64,000 bases of DNA from the NCBI RefSeq assembly GCF_015024225.1, contig NZ_JACJGM010000003.1, positions 124,001 through 188,000 of the forward strand, written 5' to 3'. The translations under genes and the position numbers were made by a program. The notes under the pieces are model-generated. The model made no database searches. It saw nothing but the letters and a program-made list of their open reading frames with translations, and had not been told where the DNA came from. Shown here in pieces: positions 11,751 to 19,997 of this stretch. Numbering within the stretch: position 1 is the first letter of the stretch; the number at the start of each line of letters is the position of its first letter. The DNA comes from Nocardioides lijunqiniae (lineage in GTDB: Bacteria > Actinomycetota > Actinomycetes > Propionibacteriales > Nocardioidaceae).

Positions 11751-12551
11751 ATGAGCGACGAGACCACCCAGATCAACCCGAACGGCATCCTGGCGGGCAA
11801 GCGGATCCTGGTCGCGGGCGTGACGATGGACAGCTCCATCGGCTTCGCCGCCGCCAAGGTCGCCCAGGAGCAGGGCGCCACGGTGCTCATCTCGAACTTC
11901 GGCCGCGCCCTGGGCATCACCCGGCGCATCGCCAAGCGGCTCCCCGTGACGCCGCCCGTCATCGAGCTGGACGTCACCGACGAGGAGCACCTCGCGGCCC
12001 TGCCCGACGCCGTGCGCGAGCACGTCGACGGCCTCGACGGCGTCGTGCACTCCATCGCCTACGGCAACCCCGCGACGCTGCTCGGTGGCAACTTCCTCGA
12101 GGGGCCCTGGGACGACGTGGCCCAGGCGATGCAGGTGTCGGCGTACTCCCTGAAGGCGCTGACGCAGGCGTCCCGGCCGCTGATGACGTCGGGCGGGTCG
12201 GTCGTCGGCCTCACCTTCGACGCCACGGTGGCCTGGCCGGCCTACGACTGGATGGGCGTGGCCAAGGCCGCGCTCGAGTCGACGTCGCGCTACCTCGCCC
12301 GCGACCTCGGCGCCGAGGGCATCCGGGTCAACCTGGTGGCGGCCGGTCCGCTGCGCACGCTGGCGGCCAAGGCGATCCCCGGGTTCAGCGACCTCGAGGA
12401 CATGTGGGGCACCCGCGCGCCGCTCGGCTGGGACAACACCGACCAGGAGCCCACGGCCAAGGCCGTGTGCGCCCTGCTGTCGGACTTCTTCCCGGCCACG
12501 ACCGGCGAGATCGTGCATGTCGACGGCGGCTTCCACGCGATGGGCGCCTGA
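11751..12551 (+). CDS. fabI: enoyl-ACP reductase (FabI/InhA type)
   Basis: A 266-residue NADH-dependent enoyl-ACP reductase, the last reductive step of the elongation cycle. The InhA-like nucleotide motif GVTMDSSIGFAAAKVAQEQG is near residues 23-42. The catalytic pair is Tyr165-x6-Lys172 (YDWMGVAK), with SIAYG at 101-105 and VDGGFHAMG at the end. It begins one base after the fabG stop and is surely co-transcribed with it. The closeness to InhA suggests sensitivity to the same inhibitor class, but that is inference only. Confidence 0.92.
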   Translation: MSDETTQINPNGILAGKRILVAGVTMDSSIGFAAAKVAQEQGATVLISNFGRALGITRRIAKRLPVTPPVIELDVTDEEHLAALPDAVREHVDGLDGVVHSIAYGNPATLLGGNFLEGPWDDVAQAMQVSAYSLKALTQASRPLMTSGGSVVGLTFDATVAWPAYDWMGVAKAALESTSRYLARDLGAEGIRVNLVAAGPLRTLAAKAIPGFSDLEDMWGTRAPLGWDNTDQEPTAKAVCALLSDFFPATTGEIVHVDGGFHAMGA

Positions 12552-12555
12552 CCGA

Positions 12556-12561
12556 TAGCGT
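12556..12561 (+). promoter_or_regulatory. -10 hexamer TAGCGT before the CphA-like ligase
   Basis: TAGCGT begins 5 bases after the fabI stop and ends 7 bases before the GTG at 12569. It supports that start over the GTG at 12560, which lies inside the hexamer. Confidence 0.5.
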
Positions 12562-12568
12562 GCGGGCG

Positions 12569-14260
12569 GTGACGTCCTCCCTCATCGAGATCCGGGTCCT
12601 CGAGGGCCCCAACCTGTACTTCCCGCGGGCCGCCATCAAGCTGACGCTCGACATCAGCGCGCTGGCCGCAACCTCGGAGGAGACGGCGCTGCGGTTCGCC
12701 AGCCGGATCGGGCTCAAGAACGCCCGCCCGGGCGCACCGGAGTCGGGCTTCCGCCAGCGGTTCGCGCTGCGTGCCGTCGGACGCCTGGTGCGCGCCGTCG
12801 CCCAGGAGTCGGGCACGTCGCGGCTCGGCGTGCGCGTGCGGCCCACGAGCGACCAGCACCAGATCGTGGTCGCCTTCCCGTGGTCGCACCGGGAGCGGGC
12901 GCAGGAGATGGGCCGGGCGATCGGCGACGTGCTCGACGCGCTGCTGAGCAAGGACATCGACGCGGCCGTCAGCGCCGCCGCGGAGCGGGTCTCGACGAGC
13001 GAGCCGGGCGAGCGGCCGCGCACCCTGACGCCGTCGGTGCCGGTCGTCGCGGTCACCGGCACCAACGGCAAGACCACGACGTCGCGGATGATCGCGCACA
13101 TCGGCCGCACCGACGGCCGGCTGGTGGGCTGGTCCAACACCGACGGCATCTACATCGACGGCGAGCTCGTGGAGGGCGGCGACTACTCCGGTCCCAGCGG
13201 GGCCGGGCGCGTGCTGGCGCACCCCGAGGTCGAGCTCGCCGTGACCGAGACGGCCCGGGGCGGGATCCTGCTGAAGGGGATCGGGCTGACCCGCAACGAC
13301 GTCTCGGTCGTCACCAACGTCTCCGCCGACCACCTCGGCCAGCAGGGCATCGACACCGTCGACCAGCTCGCGGAGGTCAAGGCGGTGGTGCCGCGGATCA
13401 CGCGCAAGAGCGGCTGGGCGGTGCTCAACGCCGACGACCCCCGCGTCTACGACATGCGCAACGTCGTGCGCGCGAAGCCGTGGGTGTTCAGCCGCGACCC
13501 CGACTCGCCGGCCATCCGCGAGACGCTCAACGCCGGCGGGCGTGCGACCACGGTCATCGACGGCTGGGTCTCGGTGCTCACGCCCAAGGCCGACCCGGAC
13601 CCGCTCGTCGAGCTGGTCGACGTGCCGATGACGCTGGCCGGTCTCTCGCGCTTCAACGTCGAGAACACCCTCGCCGCCACCTCGGCGTCGCTAGCGATCG
13701 GCATCGCGCGCGAGGTGGTCGTCGAGGGGCTGCGGACCTTCCTGCCCGACGCCGAGCACAACCCCGGCCGGATGAACTTCTTCTCGCTCGGCGAGGTCTC
13801 GGTGGTCATGGACCTGGCCCACAACGAGGCGGGGCTCGAGGCGCTGATGGAGATCATGAACGGCGTGCGCCGTCCGGGGGCGCGGCTGCTGCTGGGCCTC
13901 GGCGTCGTGGGCGACCGCCAGGACGACCTGATCGAGAAGCTCGGCGAGATCGCGGCCCGCGACAGCGACGTGGTGGCGATCGGCCACAAGGAGAAGTACC
14001 TGCGCGGGCGCAGTCCCGAGGAGCTCGAGGCCCTCATGCGCGCCGGCGCCGAGCGGGTGGGCGTCACGGGCGTGCCGGCGTACCCGACGGAGGTGGCGGT
14101 GCTGGCCGCGCTGGTCGGCCAGGCCCTGCCGGGCGACGTCGTCGGGCTGATGTGCCACGCGGAGCGCGAGGAGTGCTACGCGTGGATCGCCGAGCACGAC
14201 GGGTCCCCTGACTCCAGCTCGGCGCTCGCCGCCAAGGTGCGCGCCGCGGCCGCAGGATGA
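12569..14260 (+). CDS. CphA-like Mur ligase lacking the ATP-grasp domain
   Basis: A 563-residue protein. Residues 1-130 resemble the N-terminal domain of cyanophycin synthetase: IEIRVLEGPNLYFPRAAIKL here against ETRVYRGANIWSYDKAIHL in the cphA gene of this window. Residues 155-520 form a Mur ligase with P-loop VTGTNGKTTTSRMI (164-170 core), ETARGGIL, NADDP, GRMNF and DLAHNEAG. The ATP-grasp domain that lies between these parts in CphA is missing, so the step that adds aspartate to the backbone cannot occur here. Mur ligases join an amino acid or amine to a carboxylate with ATP; the substrate is unknown. The last four bases overlap the serine hydrolase start. It faces the cphB-cphA operon, which suggests a linked role. 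Confidence 0.8.
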   Translation: MTSSLIEIRVLEGPNLYFPRAAIKLTLDISALAATSEETALRFASRIGLKNARPGAPESGFRQRFALRAVGRLVRAVAQESGTSRLGVRVRPTSDQHQIVVAFPWSHRERAQEMGRAIGDVLDALLSKDIDAAVSAAAERVSTSEPGERPRTLTPSVPVVAVTGTNGKTTTSRMIAHIGRTDGRLVGWSNTDGIYIDGELVEGGDYSGPSGAGRVLAHPEVELAVTETARGGILLKGIGLTRNDVSVVTNVSADHLGQQGIDTVDQLAEVKAVVPRITRKSGWAVLNADDPRVYDMRNVVRAKPWVFSRDPDSPAIRETLNAGGRATTVIDGWVSVLTPKADPDPLVELVDVPMTLAGLSRFNVENTLAATSASLAIGIAREVVVEGLRTFLPDAEHNPGRMNFFSLGEVSVVMDLAHNEAGLEALMEIMNGVRRPGARLLLGLGVVGDRQDDLIEKLGEIAARDSDVVAIGHKEKYLRGRSPEELEALMRAGAERVGVTGVPAYPTEVAVLAALVGQALPGDVVGLMCHAEREECYAWIAEHDGSPDSSSALAAKVRAAAAG

Positions 14261-15156
14261 GGGTCGAGCCGGCCTCGGGGCTGCTCGTCGAGGACCGCGA
14301 GGTCGTCTCCGGCGCCCCCTCCTCGGGGATCTACCAGATCGGCTCCATCACCAAGGTGTTCACCGCACTCGTGCTGGCGCGCGAGGTGGTCGGGGGAAGG
14401 CTGGCGCTCGAGCAGCAGCTGCAGGACCTCCTGCCGAGGCTCGCCGACCGCCCGGTCGGGTCGGTGACGCTGCGCGAGCTCGTCACGCACACCAGCGGGC
14501 TGCCCCGACTGCCGCCCGGCATGTGGCGCAAGAGCGTCGGGAAGGAGCGGCGGGACCCCTACGCCGACATCGACGAGTCCTCGCTGCTGTCCTCCGTGGC
14601 GGACCTGGCGCCACGCCACCCGAGCCGTCCCGGCTACTCCAACCTCGGCTTCGGGCTCCTCGGGCACGCCCTGACACGTCATCTCGGGACGTCCTACGAC
14701 GAGGCCGTGCGCGCGGCGGTCACCGCGCCGCTGGGCATGCACGACACCGGGTGCGCTCCGGACCCGGAGCGCCTCGTGGTCGGACGCTCGCGTCGAGGCC
14801 GGCCCCACGACGTGGCCTGGACGTTCCAGGCGATGGCGGGCGCAGGGGCCCTGTGGTCCACCGTCGACGACATGCTGCTCTTCCTGCGTGCCCAGCTCGA
14901 CCCGCCCGGCGGTCCGCTCGGGGAGGCGATCGCGCTCTCGCAGGAGCCTCTGGCCGGATCGGGGAGGATGCGTCGCGCGATGGCCTGGCTCCAGGTGGGC
15001 GGCAAGGACGGAACGCTGCTCTTCCACAACGGCGGCACGGCCGGCTACCGCAGCTTCACCGCCGTCGACGCGAGTCGGCGCCGCGCCGCGGTGGTGCTCG
15101 GCGCCAGCGACCGCAGCGTCGACCGGGCCGGGATGCACCTCGTGCGCTCAGGATGA
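14257..15156 (+). CDS. beta-lactamase-fold serine hydrolase, coupled to the CphA-like ligase
   Basis: A 299-residue class C beta-lactamase/DD-peptidase-like protein. The nucleophile motif is SITK (near residue 30), the second motif is YSNLGFGLL, and a C-terminal HNGGTAGYRS replaces the usual KTG triad (HNG variant common in hydrolases and esterases). No signal peptide is visible, so it is probably cytoplasmic, unlike true penicillin-binding proteins. It starts at the ATG within ATGA, sharing bases with the ligase stop. The target may be an amide or ester, perhaps made by the ligase; that is inference. The end overlaps the opposed membrane gene by nine bases. Confidence 0.78.
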   Translation: MRVEPASGLLVEDREVVSGAPSSGIYQIGSITKVFTALVLAREVVGGRLALEQQLQDLLPRLADRPVGSVTLRELVTHTSGLPRLPPGMWRKSVGKERRDPYADIDESSLLSSVADLAPRHPSRPGYSNLGFGLLGHALTRHLGTSYDEAVRAAVTAPLGMHDTGCAPDPERLVVGRSRRGRPHDVAWTFQAMAGAGALWSTVDDMLLFLRAQLDPPGGPLGEAIALSQEPLAGSGRMRRAMAWLQVGGKDGTLLFHNGGTAGYRSFTAVDASRRRAAVVLGASDRSVDRAGMHLVRSG

Positions 15157-15837
15157 GGCCGCGGACGCGGCCCGGCGCTCGCGTCGCCCCCACGGCCAGG
15201 TCATCGCGGCCCACACCACGATGACGATCCCGATCTCGGCGAGCACGTAGACCGGCCACGGGCCGAGCAGGTCCAGGACGGAGTCGCCTCCGGGCTTGCG
15301 CTGGAGGTAGCCGTAGTTGGTGCCGGCGAGCTCGTTGAAGGTGTAGGCGCAGACCGCCCAGGCGAACGTCGCGGCGACGGTGAACCGGTAGTCGCGCCAT
15401 CCCGGTGGGAGCCCGCGGCCCCAGACCAGGAAGACCGCCGCCCAGACGACCAGCAGGTGGATGAACCAGTAGGCGAAGTAGCGCAGGTCGGGGAAGTCCT
15501 CACCCAGCGACGGCGTCACGATGGCCTGCGTGGTGAGGACGAGGCCCCAGAAGTAGGTCAGGGCGACGGCGTAGCGGTGGTGGGTCCACAGCGCGACGGC
15601 GGCCGCGACCCAGGCGAGGTCGCTGAGGTGGAAGGGCAGGGAGACGCCCAGCTCGAAGCGCGTCGCGATGTCGTAGACCTGGGTCGGGACGTGGACCAGC
15701 GGGATGGCCACGGCGGCCCCGCGGCTCACCAGGCGGCTGCCGGTGCGTCGCTCCCAGCGTCCGAGCAGGACGGCCAGGGGCAGGCCGGCGACGAAGACGA
15801 CCAGCATCACCACGTGCGAGCTGCTGTAGGCGTCCAT
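15148..15837 (-). CDS. YwaF/TIGR02206-type multi-pass membrane protein
   Basis: A 229-residue protein with about six or seven hydrophobic helices and conserved-looking polar turns LPFHLSDLAW, FPDLRYFAYWFIH and NELAGTNYGYLQRKP. This matches the YwaF (TIGR02206) family of integral membrane proteins of unknown function. It is the last gene of the operon cphB-cphA-cupin-ywaF, nine bases after the cupin stop with GAGGAG as ribosome binding site. A transport or sensing role near cyanophycin genes is possible but not shown. Confidence 0.75.
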   Translation of the reverse strand: MDAYSSSHVVMLVVFVAGLPLAVLLGRWERRTGSRLVSRGAAVAIPLVHVPTQVYDIATRFELGVSLPFHLSDLAWVAAAVALWTHHRYAVALTYFWGLVLTTQAIVTPSLGEDFPDLRYFAYWFIHLLVVWAAVFLVWGRGLPPGWRDYRFTVAATFAWAVCAYTFNELAGTNYGYLQRKPGGDSVLDLLGPWPVYVLAEIGIVIVVWAAMTWPWGRRERRAASAASS

Positions 15838-15846
15838 CGCTTCTCC

Positions 15847-16221
15847 TCAGACGTCGCCCGGGTCGACGTGGTGGCCCGGCGTCCCGACCTCGACCTCGCC
15901 CTCGAGGACGAGGGCGACCAGGCCGTCGACGGTGCGGGTCTCGTGCGGCTCGTAGGGCTCCCAGACCACGGCGTGGCCCGGGCCGACCGTCACGGCCTCG
16001 CCGGTCCCGTCGGAGCCTCCCGAGACGACGGCCTCGCCGTCGAGCACCACGAGGAGCTGCCGCGCGGCCGCGGGGTGCCGGCCGATCACGCCGCCGGGCG
16101 CGAGGGTGACGGTGACCAGGTGGGCCTCGGCCGTGAGCCCGAAGGCCGCCACGGAGAAGCCCTTGCTGCCGTGGGCGTCGATGCGGCGGCCGCCGAGGGC
16201 GGTGAGGTCCAGGACGCGCAT
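15847..16221 (-). CDS. cupin-domain protein in the cph operon
   Basis: A 124-residue single-domain cupin. VTVTLAPGGVIGRHPAAARQLLVVLDGEAVV covers cupin motif 1, with histidine in GRHP but fewer metal ligands than usual, and GPGHAVVWEPYEPHETRT covers motif 2. Its ATG shares one base with the cphA stop (TGATG), so translation is coupled. Cupins may be enzymes, sugar or metal binders, or sensors; the weak motif 1 makes an enzyme less certain. Nothing in cyanophycin metabolism as I know it requires a cupin, so its presence here is notable. Confidence 0.75.
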   Translation of the reverse strand: MRVLDLTALGGRRIDAHGSKGFSVAAFGLTAEAHLVTVTLAPGGVIGRHPAAARQLLVVLDGEAVVSGGSDGTGEAVTVGPGHAVVWEPYEPHETRTVDGLVALVLEGEVEVGTPGHHVDPGDV

Positions 16222-18995
16222 CAGGCCTCGGTCGGCGCCGCGACGTAGTCGGGGTCGGCCGCCGGGGCGTCCGAGGTGACGCCCGCGCCCGCCTGGGCCT
16301 GCGAGGACCAGCTCTCGAGCTCGGTCATCACCGACGCGTGCTTGTCGACGCAGATGACCACGAGGTCGCCGCGGTTGGCCCGGGCCATCGCGTGGCGCAC
16401 GGCCTCGATCTCCTCGTGCACCTCCTCGACCTGCTTGCACCGGGCGCCGGCCTCCATGGCGGTCCGGACGCCCTCGGCGACCAGCCCGGCGACGTACCCT
16501 CGCTCGCGGCCGCGGAGCTGGACGTCCTCGCGGACGATGACGACGTCGAAGTGCTGGGCGGCGATCTCGCCCAGCTCGCGCATGTCCTGGTCGCGGCGGT
16601 CACCGGCGGTGGCGATGACGCCGATGCGCGACGGCCGGGCGAGGTCGTGCGAGGACGCCAGGGTCTCGCCCACCCGGTCGACGAAGTCGCCCAGCATGCG
16701 CATGCCGGGCGCGTTGTGGCAGTAGTCGACGATGACGTTGACGCCGTTGACCTCGACCTCGTTGAGGCGACCGGGGGAGAGGTAGTAGCTGGTGGAGAAC
16801 GTGCGCAGCCCCTGGCGGATGTCGTGGAGCGGGGCGCCGGCCGCGAAGGCCGCGGCGGCGGCGCCGAGCGCGTTCTGGACGTTCATGCGGGCGCGACCGC
16901 CGAACGTCGCGGGCAGCAGGTGCGTCCACGCCAGCTGCATCTCGCGCGGACCGTGCTTGACGACGATCATCTCGCCACGCTCGGAGGGGTTGAGCACCAG
17001 CGCCTTGCCGCCGCGGCGGCAGTGGGCGTCGATCATGTCGCGCGTCTCCGAGCCCGGCTCCTCCATCGAGAACCACACGACCTGGCCCGAGCAGCGCCGG
17101 CGCATCTCGCGCACCAGCGGGTCGTCGGCGTTGAGCACGGCGTGGCCGTCGCGGGGGACCGCCTCGACCAGCACGGCCTTGACATCGGCGAGCTGCTCCA
17201 CGGTGTCGATGCCGCGCAGGCCCAGGTGGTCGGGCTGCACGTTGAGGACGACGGCGACGTCGTTGCGCTCGTAGCCGAGACCCTCGCGCAGGATGCCCCC
17301 GCGCGCGACCTCGAAGACCGCGAAGTCGACGCGGGGGTTCTGCAGGACCATGCGCGCCGAGCGCGGCCCGGACGCGTCCGAGCGGATCAGGAGCCGCTCG
17401 TCGATGACGACGCCGTCGGTGGAGGTCATGCCGACCTTGCGGCCCATGCCCTTGAAGATGTGGCTGATCATCCGCGACGTGGTGGTCTTGCCGTTGGTGC
17501 CGGTCACGGCGACGATCGGGATCCGGCTGGTGGCGCCCGGCGGGAACAGCATGTCGACGACCGGCTTGGCGATGAACTGCGGCTCGCCGATCGTCGGGTG
17601 CGTGTGCATCCGGAAGCCCGGCGCGGCGTTGATCTCGCAGATCGCGCCGCCCGTCTCGCGCACCGGCTCGGTGATGTCGGGGCAGATGAAGTCGATGCCG
17701 GCGATGTCGAGGCCGACCATGCGGGCGGCCTCCTCGGCGATCTCGACGTTCTCGGGGTGCGCCTCGAAGGTGCGGTCGATGGAGATGCCGCCGGTGGACA
17801 TGTTGCCGGTGAGGGCGAGCTTGACGACCTGGCCGTCGGGAGGCACGTCGGTCATGGCGAAGCCCTGCTCGCGGACCAGCTCGACGGCGGCGTCGTCGAC
17901 CTTGATCCGGGTCAGGACCTTCTCGTGCCCGACGCCGCGGCGCGGGTCGGCGTTGGCGGTGTCGACGAGCTGCTCGACGGTGCTGGTGCCGTCACCGGTG
18001 ACGGAGGCCGGCACCCGCTCGGCGATGGCGGCGACGCGGCCGTCGATGATCAGGCAGCGGTAGTCCTTGCCGAGGATCAGCGACTCGACCACGACGACGC
18101 CGCGACGCGACTGCTCCTTGGCGATGGGGAACGCCTCGCGCACGTCGTCGGCGTCCTGCAGGTCCAGGCAGACGCCGCGTCCGTGGTTGCCGTCGAGCGG
18201 CTTGACCACGACGGGGTAGCCGATGCGGTCGGCCGCGCGGACCGCCTGGTCCTCGGTGCGGACGGTGTCCTGCTTGGGGACCGGGAGTCCCGCGGCGCCG
18301 AGGAGCCGGGTCGTCAGGTCCTTGTCGGAGGCGATGTCCACGGCGATCGCCGAGGTGTTGGACGTCATCGTGGCGCGGATGCGCTTGGCGTGGACGCCCT
18401 GCCCGAGCTGGACCAGGGAGTGCTGGTTGAGCCGGATCCAGGGGATGTCGCGCGACACGGCCTCGTCGAGGATGGCCTGCGTGGACGGGCCGAACGCCGT
18501 GCGCTCGGCGCGCAGGATGAACGACTCGAGCTCGTCGTCCCAGTCGAGCTCCGGGTCGGCCTGCACGAGGTGGTTGACCAGGCGGACGGCCAGGCGCGCG
18601 GCGGCGAGGCCGACCTGCTCGTCGGCGTACCCGAAGATGACGTTGTAAACGCCCTTCTTGCCGCGGACCTGGCGGGTCTTGCCGCGGCGGATGTCGTGGC
18701 CGACGACCTGCTGCAGCGCCAGCGCGGTGTGCTCCGCGACGTGGCCCAGCCAGGTGCCCTCGTTGAGGCGCTCGACGAAGCCGCCGCGCTTGCCACGCGA
18801 GCAGGAGTGCTCGCGCAGGCCGGGCAGCATCTGCAGGAGGTTGTCGGTGAAGCCGGGGATGGTGTTGGTCGGGAAGTCCTCGAGGGAGCCGAGGTCCACG
18901 ACGAGGTGGATGGCCTTGTCGTAGGACCAGATGTTGGCTCCGCGGTAGACCCGCGTCTCGATGATGTCGAGGTCGGGGGTGGGGCGTTCGCTCAT
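16221..18995 (-). CDS. cphA: cyanophycin synthetase
   Basis: A 924-residue enzyme that polymerises aspartate and arginine into multi-L-arginyl-poly-L-aspartate with ATP. The domains are all present. The N-terminal domain spans about residues 1-160. The ATP-grasp domain is at about 215-485, with PVVVKPLDGNHGRGV at 261-275 and the metal-binding EINAAPG at 454-460. The Mur-ligase-like domain is at about 490-880, with P-loop VTGTNGKTTT (497-506), NADDP and DYCHNAPG. Both catalytic halves look intact, unlike CphA2 types. The length is at the upper end of the family through a C-terminal Ala-rich tail. It overlaps the cphB stop by four bases, so the polymerase and its hydrolase are made from one transcript. 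Confidence 0.93.
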   Translation of the reverse strand: MSERPTPDLDIIETRVYRGANIWSYDKAIHLVVDLGSLEDFPTNTIPGFTDNLLQMLPGLREHSCSRGKRGGFVERLNEGTWLGHVAEHTALALQQVVGHDIRRGKTRQVRGKKGVYNVIFGYADEQVGLAAARLAVRLVNHLVQADPELDWDDELESFILRAERTAFGPSTQAILDEAVSRDIPWIRLNQHSLVQLGQGVHAKRIRATMTSNTSAIAVDIASDKDLTTRLLGAAGLPVPKQDTVRTEDQAVRAADRIGYPVVVKPLDGNHGRGVCLDLQDADDVREAFPIAKEQSRRGVVVVESLILGKDYRCLIIDGRVAAIAERVPASVTGDGTSTVEQLVDTANADPRRGVGHEKVLTRIKVDDAAVELVREQGFAMTDVPPDGQVVKLALTGNMSTGGISIDRTFEAHPENVEIAEEAARMVGLDIAGIDFICPDITEPVRETGGAICEINAAPGFRMHTHPTIGEPQFIAKPVVDMLFPPGATSRIPIVAVTGTNGKTTTSRMISHIFKGMGRKVGMTSTDGVVIDERLLIRSDASGPRSARMVLQNPRVDFAVFEVARGGILREGLGYERNDVAVVLNVQPDHLGLRGIDTVEQLADVKAVLVEAVPRDGHAVLNADDPLVREMRRRCSGQVVWFSMEEPGSETRDMIDAHCRRGGKALVLNPSERGEMIVVKHGPREMQLAWTHLLPATFGGRARMNVQNALGAAAAAFAAGAPLHDIRQGLRTFSTSYYLSPGRLNEVEVNGVNVIVDYCHNAPGMRMLGDFVDRVGETLASSHDLARPSRIGVIATAGDRRDQDMRELGEIAAQHFDVVIVREDVQLRGRERGYVAGLVAEGVRTAMEAGARCKQVEEVHEEIEAVRHAMARANRGDLVVICVDKHASVMTELESWSSQAQAGAGVTSDAPAADPDYVAAPTEA

Positions 18996-19984
18996 GAGGT
19001 GACTCCGTCCGGTCCGTGGGTGGGCGGTGTGCTCTGGCGCCGGGCCCGCGCGAGGCGTCGACGGAGGGCGGTGGGCGAGGCGTCGGCGGCGGCGATGTCG
19101 CGCGCCATCTGGCGCAGGTCGTGGCTGGCCTCCGCGATCTCGGCGGCCTCCTCGAGGTCGACGCGCTGGTCGGGCGCCACGAGGGTGCGGGTGGTGAGGT
19201 CGAAGGTGGCGCCCGCCGGGAGCGCGTGGAGGACCACCCCGCTGGCGAGGATCGGCGCGGAGCGCTTGGCCTCGAACGCGTCCGTGGTGATGCGGGCGGG
19301 GTCGAAGATCGTGACCGCGCCGCGGCCCACCACGCGGAGCACCTCGTGCTCCTCGCCGTCGACGTCACGGCGCTCGACGACCGCGGCGGTGTCCTCGTCG
19401 ACGCCGAGGCCCAGCAGCTGGGGTGACTGGGCGACGATCATCAGCAGCCGACCGTAGCGGTTGCGCTGGTCGAAGTGCTGGTCGATGACCGACGACTGGA
19501 GCAGGCCGAGCCCGGCGGCGACCTGGGTCATCCGCTGCTTGGCCGTCGCGCCCGGGCCGCCGAACGCGACCATGTGGCTGGACTGGATGCTGGCGCCCGC
19601 CGACGTACCGGCCACGACCACGCCGCGCTCGTGGGCGGCGATGATCGCCTCGCCCAGCGGGGTGCCGCCGATGATCGCGGACAGCTTGAGCTGGTTGCCG
19701 CCGGTCATGAAGATGCCGGTGGCATCGGCGAGGGTCTTGACCAGCGCCTCGTCGTGGGCGTCCTCGCGACTCTCGGGGCGGATGGCGATCACGTCCGCGG
19801 CGCCCTCGCGCCGGAACAGGGCGTCGTAGACCTGCACGACCTCGATCCCGAGGGACGAGGCGGTCGGGATGACCGCGATGCGTGCGTCAGCCCCACCCGC
19901 TGCTGCGACGAACTCCTTGAGGATGCTGCGCCGGCGGAGCTTGTCCTCGGCGCCGCCGATGATCATGAGGGGTCCCTTGGGCAT
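18992..19984 (-). CDS. cphB: cyanophycinase
   Basis: A 330-residue S51-family serine peptidase homologue. The nucleophile is Ser128 in VVVAGTSAGASI, with MTGGNQLKLS before it and IDQHFDQRNRYGRL after it, all typical of cyanophycinase, which cuts the polymer to beta-Asp-Arg dipeptides. The charged C-terminal tail (about 60 residues) is longer than usual. The ATG at 19984 is preferred over the GTG at 19993 because TAGGGT lies 7 bases before the ATG. It leads the operon with cphA, a cupin and a membrane protein. No isoaspartyl dipeptidase gene is recognised nearby. Confidence 0.9.
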   Translation of the reverse strand: MPKGPLMIIGGAEDKLRRRSILKEFVAAAGGADARIAVIPTASSLGIEVVQVYDALFRREGAADVIAIRPESREDAHDEALVKTLADATGIFMTGGNQLKLSAIIGGTPLGEAIIAAHERGVVVAGTSAGASIQSSHMVAFGGPGATAKQRMTQVAAGLGLLQSSVIDQHFDQRNRYGRLLMIVAQSPQLLGLGVDEDTAAVVERRDVDGEEHEVLRVVGRGAVTIFDPARITTDAFEAKRSAPILASGVVLHALPAGATFDLTTRTLVAPDQRVDLEEAAEIAEASHDLRQMARDIAAADASPTALRRRLARARRQSTPPTHGPDGVTS

Positions 19985-19991
19985 GCGAGTC

Positions 19992-19997
19992 ACCCTA
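19992..19997 (-). promoter_or_regulatory. -10 hexamer TAGGGT (minus strand) for the cph operon
   Basis: TAGGGT lies 7 bases before the cphB ATG. Its first two bases are shared with the plus-strand hexamer TATGGT, so the two divergent promoters cannot easily be occupied at once. Confidence 0.55.

Follow-up and report, generated by a model that had tools for sequence, protein, structure and literature searches.

A CphA-like ligase without an ATP-grasp domain accompanies native cyanophycin synthetase across Actinomycetota

Cyanophycin has been described as a single-enzyme product, and its synthetase, CphA1, carries an ATP-grasp (G) domain between an N domain and a Mur-ligase-type (M) domain. CphA2 is a relative with a working ATP-grasp domain and an inactive Mur domain, its single active site being the ATP-grasp site. 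A zinc motif of the N domain, Cx19HxxEH, is present in most but not all CphA1 proteins. The motif makes primers in many CphA1 (PMC9262961), and CphA2 repolymerises dipeptides with its single active site (PMC10206079). In a Mur-domain phylogeny, CphA is regarded as an ATP-grasp fusion (PMC11915815), and a survey of cyanophycin gene clusters counted 35 Actinomycetota genomes with CphA1 (PMC10206079). Here, we analyzed a 64,000-nucleotide stretch of Nocardioides lijunqiniae (contig NZ_JACJGM010000003.1, positions 124,001 to 188,000; hereafter the window), which belongs to an assembly of 4.81 Mb in 75 contigs. It holds a gene, called S below, for a 563-residue CphA-like ligase without an ATP-grasp domain, and close by the genes for cyanophycin synthetase (cphA) and cyanophycinase (cphB). 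We found no mention of an S-like protein in the consulted parts of the survey, and no description of one in the open-access cyanophycin papers searched, subscription papers being outside the search.

A first-pass annotation of the window had read S as the N domain and Mur half of CphA without the ATP-grasp half, and our profile searches, profile-profile alignment and structure model bear this out. S belongs to the Mur ligase superfamily, since both Pfam domains exceed their curated cut-offs (Mur_ligase_M, PF08245, 65.6 bits at residues 162–372 against 24; Mur_ligase_C, PF02875, 42.2 bits at residues 400–528 against 28.4). The top NCBIfam model was cyanophycin synthetase (TIGR02068, 388.5 bits, profile positions 476–854 of 862), a score below the whole-protein cut-off of 850; the MurE models (93 bits), MurT (46 bits) and FolC (41 bits) scored lower. 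S is 39% identical to the window's CphA across residues 150–529 and matches solved CphA1 chains with an E value of 2e-77. No Pfam ATP-grasp family matched any of 56 scanned members of the S family, and the alignments skip that part of CphA.

As one outcome that would refute its reading, the annotation had named an alignment in which residues 1–130 are unrelated to CphA. Pfam's model of the CphA N domain (PF18921) gave no match in S. When the profile of the N domains of 58 S was aligned with that of 50 CphAs (hhalign), residues 1–150 proved to be related to the CphA N domain (probability 95.2%, P = 7e-9, 158 columns), and a column-shuffled control (one shuffle) gave P = 0.63. An AlphaFold2 model of S based on 56 aligned sequences (mean pLDDT 88.6, pTM 0.84) ranked CphA1 first in Foldseek (E = 3.7e-40). 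VIA-align superposed 522–525 of the 563 residues end to end on CphA1 chains, from residue 3 onwards and with the ATP-grasp domain skipped (Z = 49.4, 47.1, 46.7 and 46.7, rmsd 3.8–4.1; Z = 35.5 for 7txv). In the predicted structure, the N domain packs against the Mur domain in the manner of CphA1, an arrangement that the annotation had suggested modelling.

The annotation had further proposed that the pairing of S with cphA and cphB be traced through Actinomycetota. We found this pairing to be conserved and tight in four genome draws and 120 loci. Among 58 relatives, S was present in 25 genomes and CphA in the identical 25, with neither in the remaining 33. In a phylum-wide draw of 396 genomes, S was found in 24 and native-type CphA in 24, with neither in 372; CphA appeared in 23 rows, the 24th genome (G291) carrying a CphA end at a contig edge, and the matches of this draw include several incomplete assemblies and some fragments. 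A class-wide draw of 394 genomes queried with CphA gave native actinobacterial CphA in 33, 30 of which have S. At the level of the order (n = 293), CphA was present in 99 genomes, 97 of them with S at E 1e-100, and S was found in none of the other 194. The draws are not independent, because they overlap and contain related species.

Some genomes carry CphA without a detected S. The CphA of G815 (350 contigs) ends 2 kb before the contig end, and no S was found in this assembly; G998 (480 contigs) has CphA and a second match weaker than E 1e-100. The three exceptions in the class-wide draw are the three examined species of family f86 (G460, G480, G495), all of one genus; each carries two full CphAs and lacks S. 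S is also missing from four genomes whose CphA is divergent (40–43% identical; G695, G564, G711, G789), and thus it accompanies the native actinobacterial type of CphA. S was absent beside the divergent CphAs at L226 8406–11234, L227 7739–10693 and L228 7602–10838 (about 42% identical to that of the window), and that of L226 lacks the HxxEH motif. These divergent actinomycete CphAs were possibly acquired from elsewhere.

Gene order is conserved as well. The set of 120 loci includes a few genomes twice; L159, L172 and L173 show the Mur half of CphA only and L174 a partial S, and after exclusions 116 S (112 distinct) and 96 full CphAs (93 distinct) remained. cphA was detected on the stretch with S in 107 loci, and the two genes are convergent in all 106 co-located pairs (103 distinct); L159, the sole same-strand row, is a contig with CphA only and was left out of this count. 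The matches are between 3 bp and 7.7 kb apart, with a median gap of 1.1 kb, and the convergent order is kept while S identity drops to 47%. CphA is missing from 13 of the 120 stretches: in L059 and L067 it lies farther off or on another contig, and several others are short contigs. Genome G996 keeps both genes although they lie apart, S on a 2.16-Mb contig (at 128.6 kb) and cphA on another contig of 526 kb (at 418 kb). With the window's genus and genus g3 set aside, 22 diverse loci remained; the only families found in most of them were CphA (22), S (22) and CphB (17), and the next was an M20 carboxypeptidase (8). We conclude that S is a conserved family and very probably a member of the cyanophycin module.

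The relatives of S were placed by a maximum-likelihood tree of 52 Mur halves. Beyond Actinomycetota, the comparison covers plasmid-borne cphA, with 15 of 42 matched plasmid records examined. S formed a single clade (100/99) apart from the CphAs, and again in a quick tree with 8 further CphAs. At 98/91 this clade grouped with a third gene that is found in four cphB-cphA-Mur clusters, two of them from Ruegeria, one from Shinella and one from a strain filed as Roseateles XES5; these make up four rows on a long branch. A MurF row was excluded, and the deepest forks are unsure because the MurE outgroup is very distant. The annotation had named a place among folylpolyglutamate or MurT-like ligases as a second refuting outcome; profile scores and structure ranking put S with cyanophycin synthetases instead, the trees having been built without those two families. 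A decayed copy of the neighbouring cphA was rejected as the origin of S, given its own clade and invariant catalytic residues.

These third genes, the separately arisen ATP-grasp-less relatives and the lost zinc peptidase motif go beyond what the annotation had noted. Profile comparison gave no link between the N-terminal part of the alphaproteobacterial type and that of CphA (P = 0.92), and only a weak one with that of S (P = 0.005). The clusters L147, L149, L192 and L201 are of the cphB-cphA-Mur kind with no iaaA nearby, and the alphaproteobacterial plasmid clusters L195, L196, L198 and L200 read cphA-iaaA-cphB with no Mur gene shown; iaaA and the Mur gene seem to alternate between clusters. 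ATP-grasp-less relatives from Deinococcus branch among Deinococcus and Sphingobium CphAs, and one from Legionella adelaidensis branches with a Chryseobacterium CphA on a long branch. Because they group with CphAs and not with S, these forms are of separate origin.

On the Deinococcus plasmids, the CphA relatives with an absent or reduced ATP-grasp part lie at L148 6023–8197, L194 3699–6215 and L151 5705–8204, and in Deinococcus strain KNUC1210 a CphA relative is split over two overlapping reading frames. The Legionella adelaidensis form (L150 6392–9122) bears HxxEH and adjoins cyanophycinase and isoaspartyl peptidase genes; the same plasmid showed no further CphA-type locus. A Paracoccus sp. 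MC1862 plasmid (L193 6061–6818) has two short CphA-type Mur fragments and no cphA in the stretch shown.

Residues were compared in 58 representatives, to which the 112 S and that of the window were reduced, with L110, L114, L152 and L153 excluded for their odd lengths. In 51 CphA Mur halves, 92 columns show at least 95% invariance, and the 58 S reach the same level in 63 of these. The equivalents of Lys499, Thr500, Glu558, Asp585, His586, Arg731 and His748 occur in 58/58 S, as do Arg777 and Arg805, and Arg807 occurs in 57/58; S thus has the P-loop, Glu558, Asp585-His586, Arg731 and His748 of a CphA-type Mur domain. In TeCphA1 the P-loop, Glu558, Arg731 and His748 bind ATP and Mg (PMC9427784), and mutation of Asp585-His586 was used to inactivate the M domain of SuCphA1 (PMC9262961). 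With these known residues kept in the alignment and the model, we infer that S is a stand-alone, catalytically competent ligase. The actinobacterial CphAs carry the invariant Mur residues themselves, and the idea that S compensates for a defective CphA Mur domain was therefore rejected. The pattern GTNGKTT was matched in 88 of 96 CphAs.

Other positions have changed. The zinc motif is found in 0/116 S loci and in 96/96 actinobacterial CphA loci, and the N domain is basic in S (median net charge +7, 130 residues), whereas it is acidic in CphA (−4, 152 residues). Ser542 is replaced by Gly in 58/58 S and in 4/4 relatives of the alphaproteobacterial type. Glu607, which contacts the polymer in SuCphA1 (PMC9262961), is replaced in S by Arg, Gln, Lys and others. 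Arg778, Asp781 and Asp801 are each found in 0/58 S; Asp801 is also found in 0/4 alphaproteobacterial-type relatives and 0/2 Deinococcus forms, against 49/50 CphAs. In the alignment, the MurE counterpart of the Asp801 loop is the DNPR/DNPA loop; in the Staphylococcus aureus enzyme its Asp406 touches the lysine side chain, and in Escherichia coli the loop serves diaminopimelate binding (PMC3829189). By analogy, Asp801 may read arginine, and the residue pattern favours an altered amino-acid specificity of S. The loss does not mark second ligases without exception, given a Sphingobium CphA that lacks Asp801 and the Legionella form that keeps it.

The genomes of family f86, which carry a duplicated CphA in place of S, bear on the same residue. 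Their second CphA is 62–63% identical to that of the window. Across 241 columns at least 96% invariant in 50 CphAs, only two are changed in all three second copies, namely Ile726 to Val and Asp824 (Asp801 of SuCphA1) to Arg, Leu or Ser, and Asp824 is the only invariant residue radically altered in all three; seven more invariant columns are altered in one or two of them. The loop VVREDR or similar has become VVPSRI, VVPSLV and VIPSSL (PS[RLS]), and the first copies retain the Asp801 loop. S and its alphaproteobacterial relatives, the Deinococcus forms and the f86 duplicate thus all show loss of Asp801.

The best explanation, which we favour with somewhat less than even confidence, is that S acts in the cyanophycin pathway as a second side-chain ligase, one whose amino acid is not arginine. 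S would activate a carboxylate with ATP and join an amino acid to it, as the M domain of CphA does. The acidic lid residues expected to read the guanidinium group of arginine are gone from S, and the amino acid it joins is therefore probably a different one. The most likely acceptor would be cyanophycin, either as a growing chain or as a fragment, at a free Asp side chain or another chain carboxylate, and the chain may be held by the N domain with its changed charge. CphA would make the backbone with its arginines, and residues of a second kind would come from S, so that the polymer would be a modified one; a backbone step by S itself is unlikely from its sequence, given the absent G domain. 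Lysine, ornithine, citrulline and glutamate occur as alternative cyanophycin constituents in foreign hosts (PMC8050183), and none of them is favoured as the added residue.

A more specific form of this explanation is possible and even more tentative: the cyanophycin of Actinomycetota would have two kinds of side chain, arginine from CphA and a second amino acid from its obligate partner S, and the f86 duplicate would have taken over the partner's task. If this were true, the Asp801 lid loop would be a natural specificity switch of cyanophycin-type ligases. More generally, if CphA has a second ligase at its side throughout a phylum, actinobacterial cyanophycin would differ in composition or its pathway would include an unrecognised step, and the lid loops of CphA, S and the f86 second CphA offer a lead for engineering polymer side chains.

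Several points weigh against a non-arginine side-chain ligase. The proposed contact between Asp801 and arginine is drawn from homology with MurE. The Sphingobium plasmid CphA (L198 3471–6251), seemingly the only ligase of its cluster, has no Asp801 (loop FREAPDGRGR), and the Legionella relative without ATP-grasp retains it. The three f86 species belong to one genus and thus count as one event, and the Asp801 loop varies within S, so that one fixed substrate is not obvious. The acceptor-site residues of S have changed too (Ser542 to Gly, Tyr537, Glu607 to Arg, Gln or Lys), and hence the acceptor may not be cyanophycin. Finally, S and cphA are usually neighbours, so that their shared inheritance could be due in large part to linkage alone; the genome draws also overlap.

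The changed acceptor site suits another explanation, which we regard as unlikely: S would extend the products of CphB, beta-Asp-Arg dipeptides or short chains, into a small molecule or a capped chain. The acceptor motif GDYSGPxG is unlike that of CphA, CphB belongs to the conserved set, 8 loci have an M20 glutamate-carboxypeptidase-like gene close to S, and the four cphB-cphA-Mur clusters without iaaA stand beside four iaaA-bearing clusters without the Mur gene. However, this contrast comes from the 15 examined plasmid records with their incomplete gene tables, and S retains the N domain, which binds the chain in CphA.

The docked N domain, the common fold and catalytic residues and the tight pairing would also fit a helper that adds arginine in trans by the same reaction as the CphA M domain, raising its rate or finishing unarginylated Asp. 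We consider this unlikely: the invariant Mur residues of the hosts' own CphAs leave no gap to fill, and neither S nor the f86 second CphA keeps the acidic lid residues. Since both the acceptor motif and the lid have changed and the N-domain charge is reversed, S might instead use an unrelated acceptor and amino acid, its link with cphA reflecting shared nitrogen or aspartate metabolism only. This seems rather improbable: S occurs in 0/33, 0/372 and 0/194 genomes without CphA (three S searches over sampled groups), and the pairing spans classes in which cphB alone is otherwise widely shared. A regulatory or structural subunit in mixed oligomers with CphA, whose ligase activity would be irrelevant, could account for the CphA-like domains and strict pairing of S and is very improbable with all seven ATP/Mg and catalytic residues kept in 58/58.

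The positions of the features are given in Table 1. S starts with GTG, and an additional in-frame GTG lies three codons upstream at 12560. The annotation had described a cphB-cphA-cupin-ywaF operon facing S. These neighbours are present, but the cupin and YwaF-type genes do not hold as conserved parts (43 and 10 of 120 loci). A gene for a beta-lactamase-fold serine hydrolase (14257–15156, plus strand) begins at the S stop codon with an ATGA overlap, which suggests coupled translation in the window; it occurs in 8 of 120 loci. All three genes were rejected as working parts on these counts. fabG-fabI precede S in 95–96 of 120 loci and in none of those from the phylum's other classes; there, S lies beside cphA without fabI, and membership of S in a fabG-fabI operon was therefore rejected as the main link. 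The M20 metallopeptidase gene is divergent from S within about 3 kb in L155, L156, L157, L161, L165, L169, L171 and L174. It resembles glutamate carboxypeptidase (NF004788, 300 bits, below the cut-off of 349), and at 8 of 120 loci it was too weak a pointer to glutamate.

Table 1. Features of S, its neighbourhood in the window and the duplicated CphAs of family f86.
Feature	Position	Strand	Basis or remark
S, CphA-like ligase without ATP-grasp domain, 563 aa	12569..14260	+	Open reading frame, profile matches, model
N domain of S, about residues 1–152	12569..13024	+	CphA N-domain relative, zinc motif absent
Mur-ligase domain of S, from about residue 153	13025..14260	+	
P-loop TGTNGKTTT of S, residues 163–171	13055..13081	+	
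Asp254-His255 of S	13328..13333	+	SuCphA1 Asp585-His586
Lid loop HKEKYLRGR of S, residues 473–481	13985..14011	+	CphA counterpart REDxxLRGR
cphA, cyanophycin synthetase, 924 aa, complete	16221..18995	-	TIGR02068, 1171.6 bits; Cx19HxxEH present
Glu823-Asp824 of window CphA	16524..16529	-	Asp824 = SuCphA1 Asp801
cphB, cyanophycinase	18992..19993	-	TIGR02069, 234.6 bits
Cupin gene, start uncertain	15847..16257	-	Accessory
YwaF/TMEM164-type membrane protein gene	15148..15837	-	Accessory
fabI (inhA-like), immediately 5' of S	11751..12551	+	Context, outside the module
f86 first CphAs (L222, L223, L232)			Full-length
f86 second CphAs (L221, L224, L231)			Full-length

Compared with known systems, S resembles CphA1 in the fold and arrangement of the N and M domains, in the residues for ATP, Mg and catalysis, and in the company of cyanophycinase. 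It differs from CphA1 in that the G domain and Cx19HxxEH are absent, Arg778, Asp781 and Asp801 are lost, Ser542 and Glu607 are replaced, and the N domain is basic instead of acidic. Like the cyanobacterial CphA2, it is a CphA relative that lacks one synthetic activity and the N-domain zinc motif (PMC9262961, PMC10206079). However, S has no ATP-grasp domain and its Mur residues are intact, so that it retains the opposite part; the annotation's view of S as the reverse of CphA2 is a fair one as architecture. MurE, folylpolyglutamate synthase and other Mur ligases share the Mur middle and C-terminal domains with S, yet their profiles match it far less well than that of cyanophycin synthetase.

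The Deinococcus and Legionella forms are like S in combining the N domain and Mur domain with an absent or reduced ATP-grasp part, and unlike it in retaining Ser542, Arg778 and Asp781. The third gene of the Shinella and Ruegeria type, labelled 'Mur ligase family protein', shares with S a Mur-domain clade apart from CphA, together with Tyr537, Gly542, Asn728, Tyr803 and the loss of Asp801. It differs from S in its length of 578–601 aa and in lying on the same strand as cphA.

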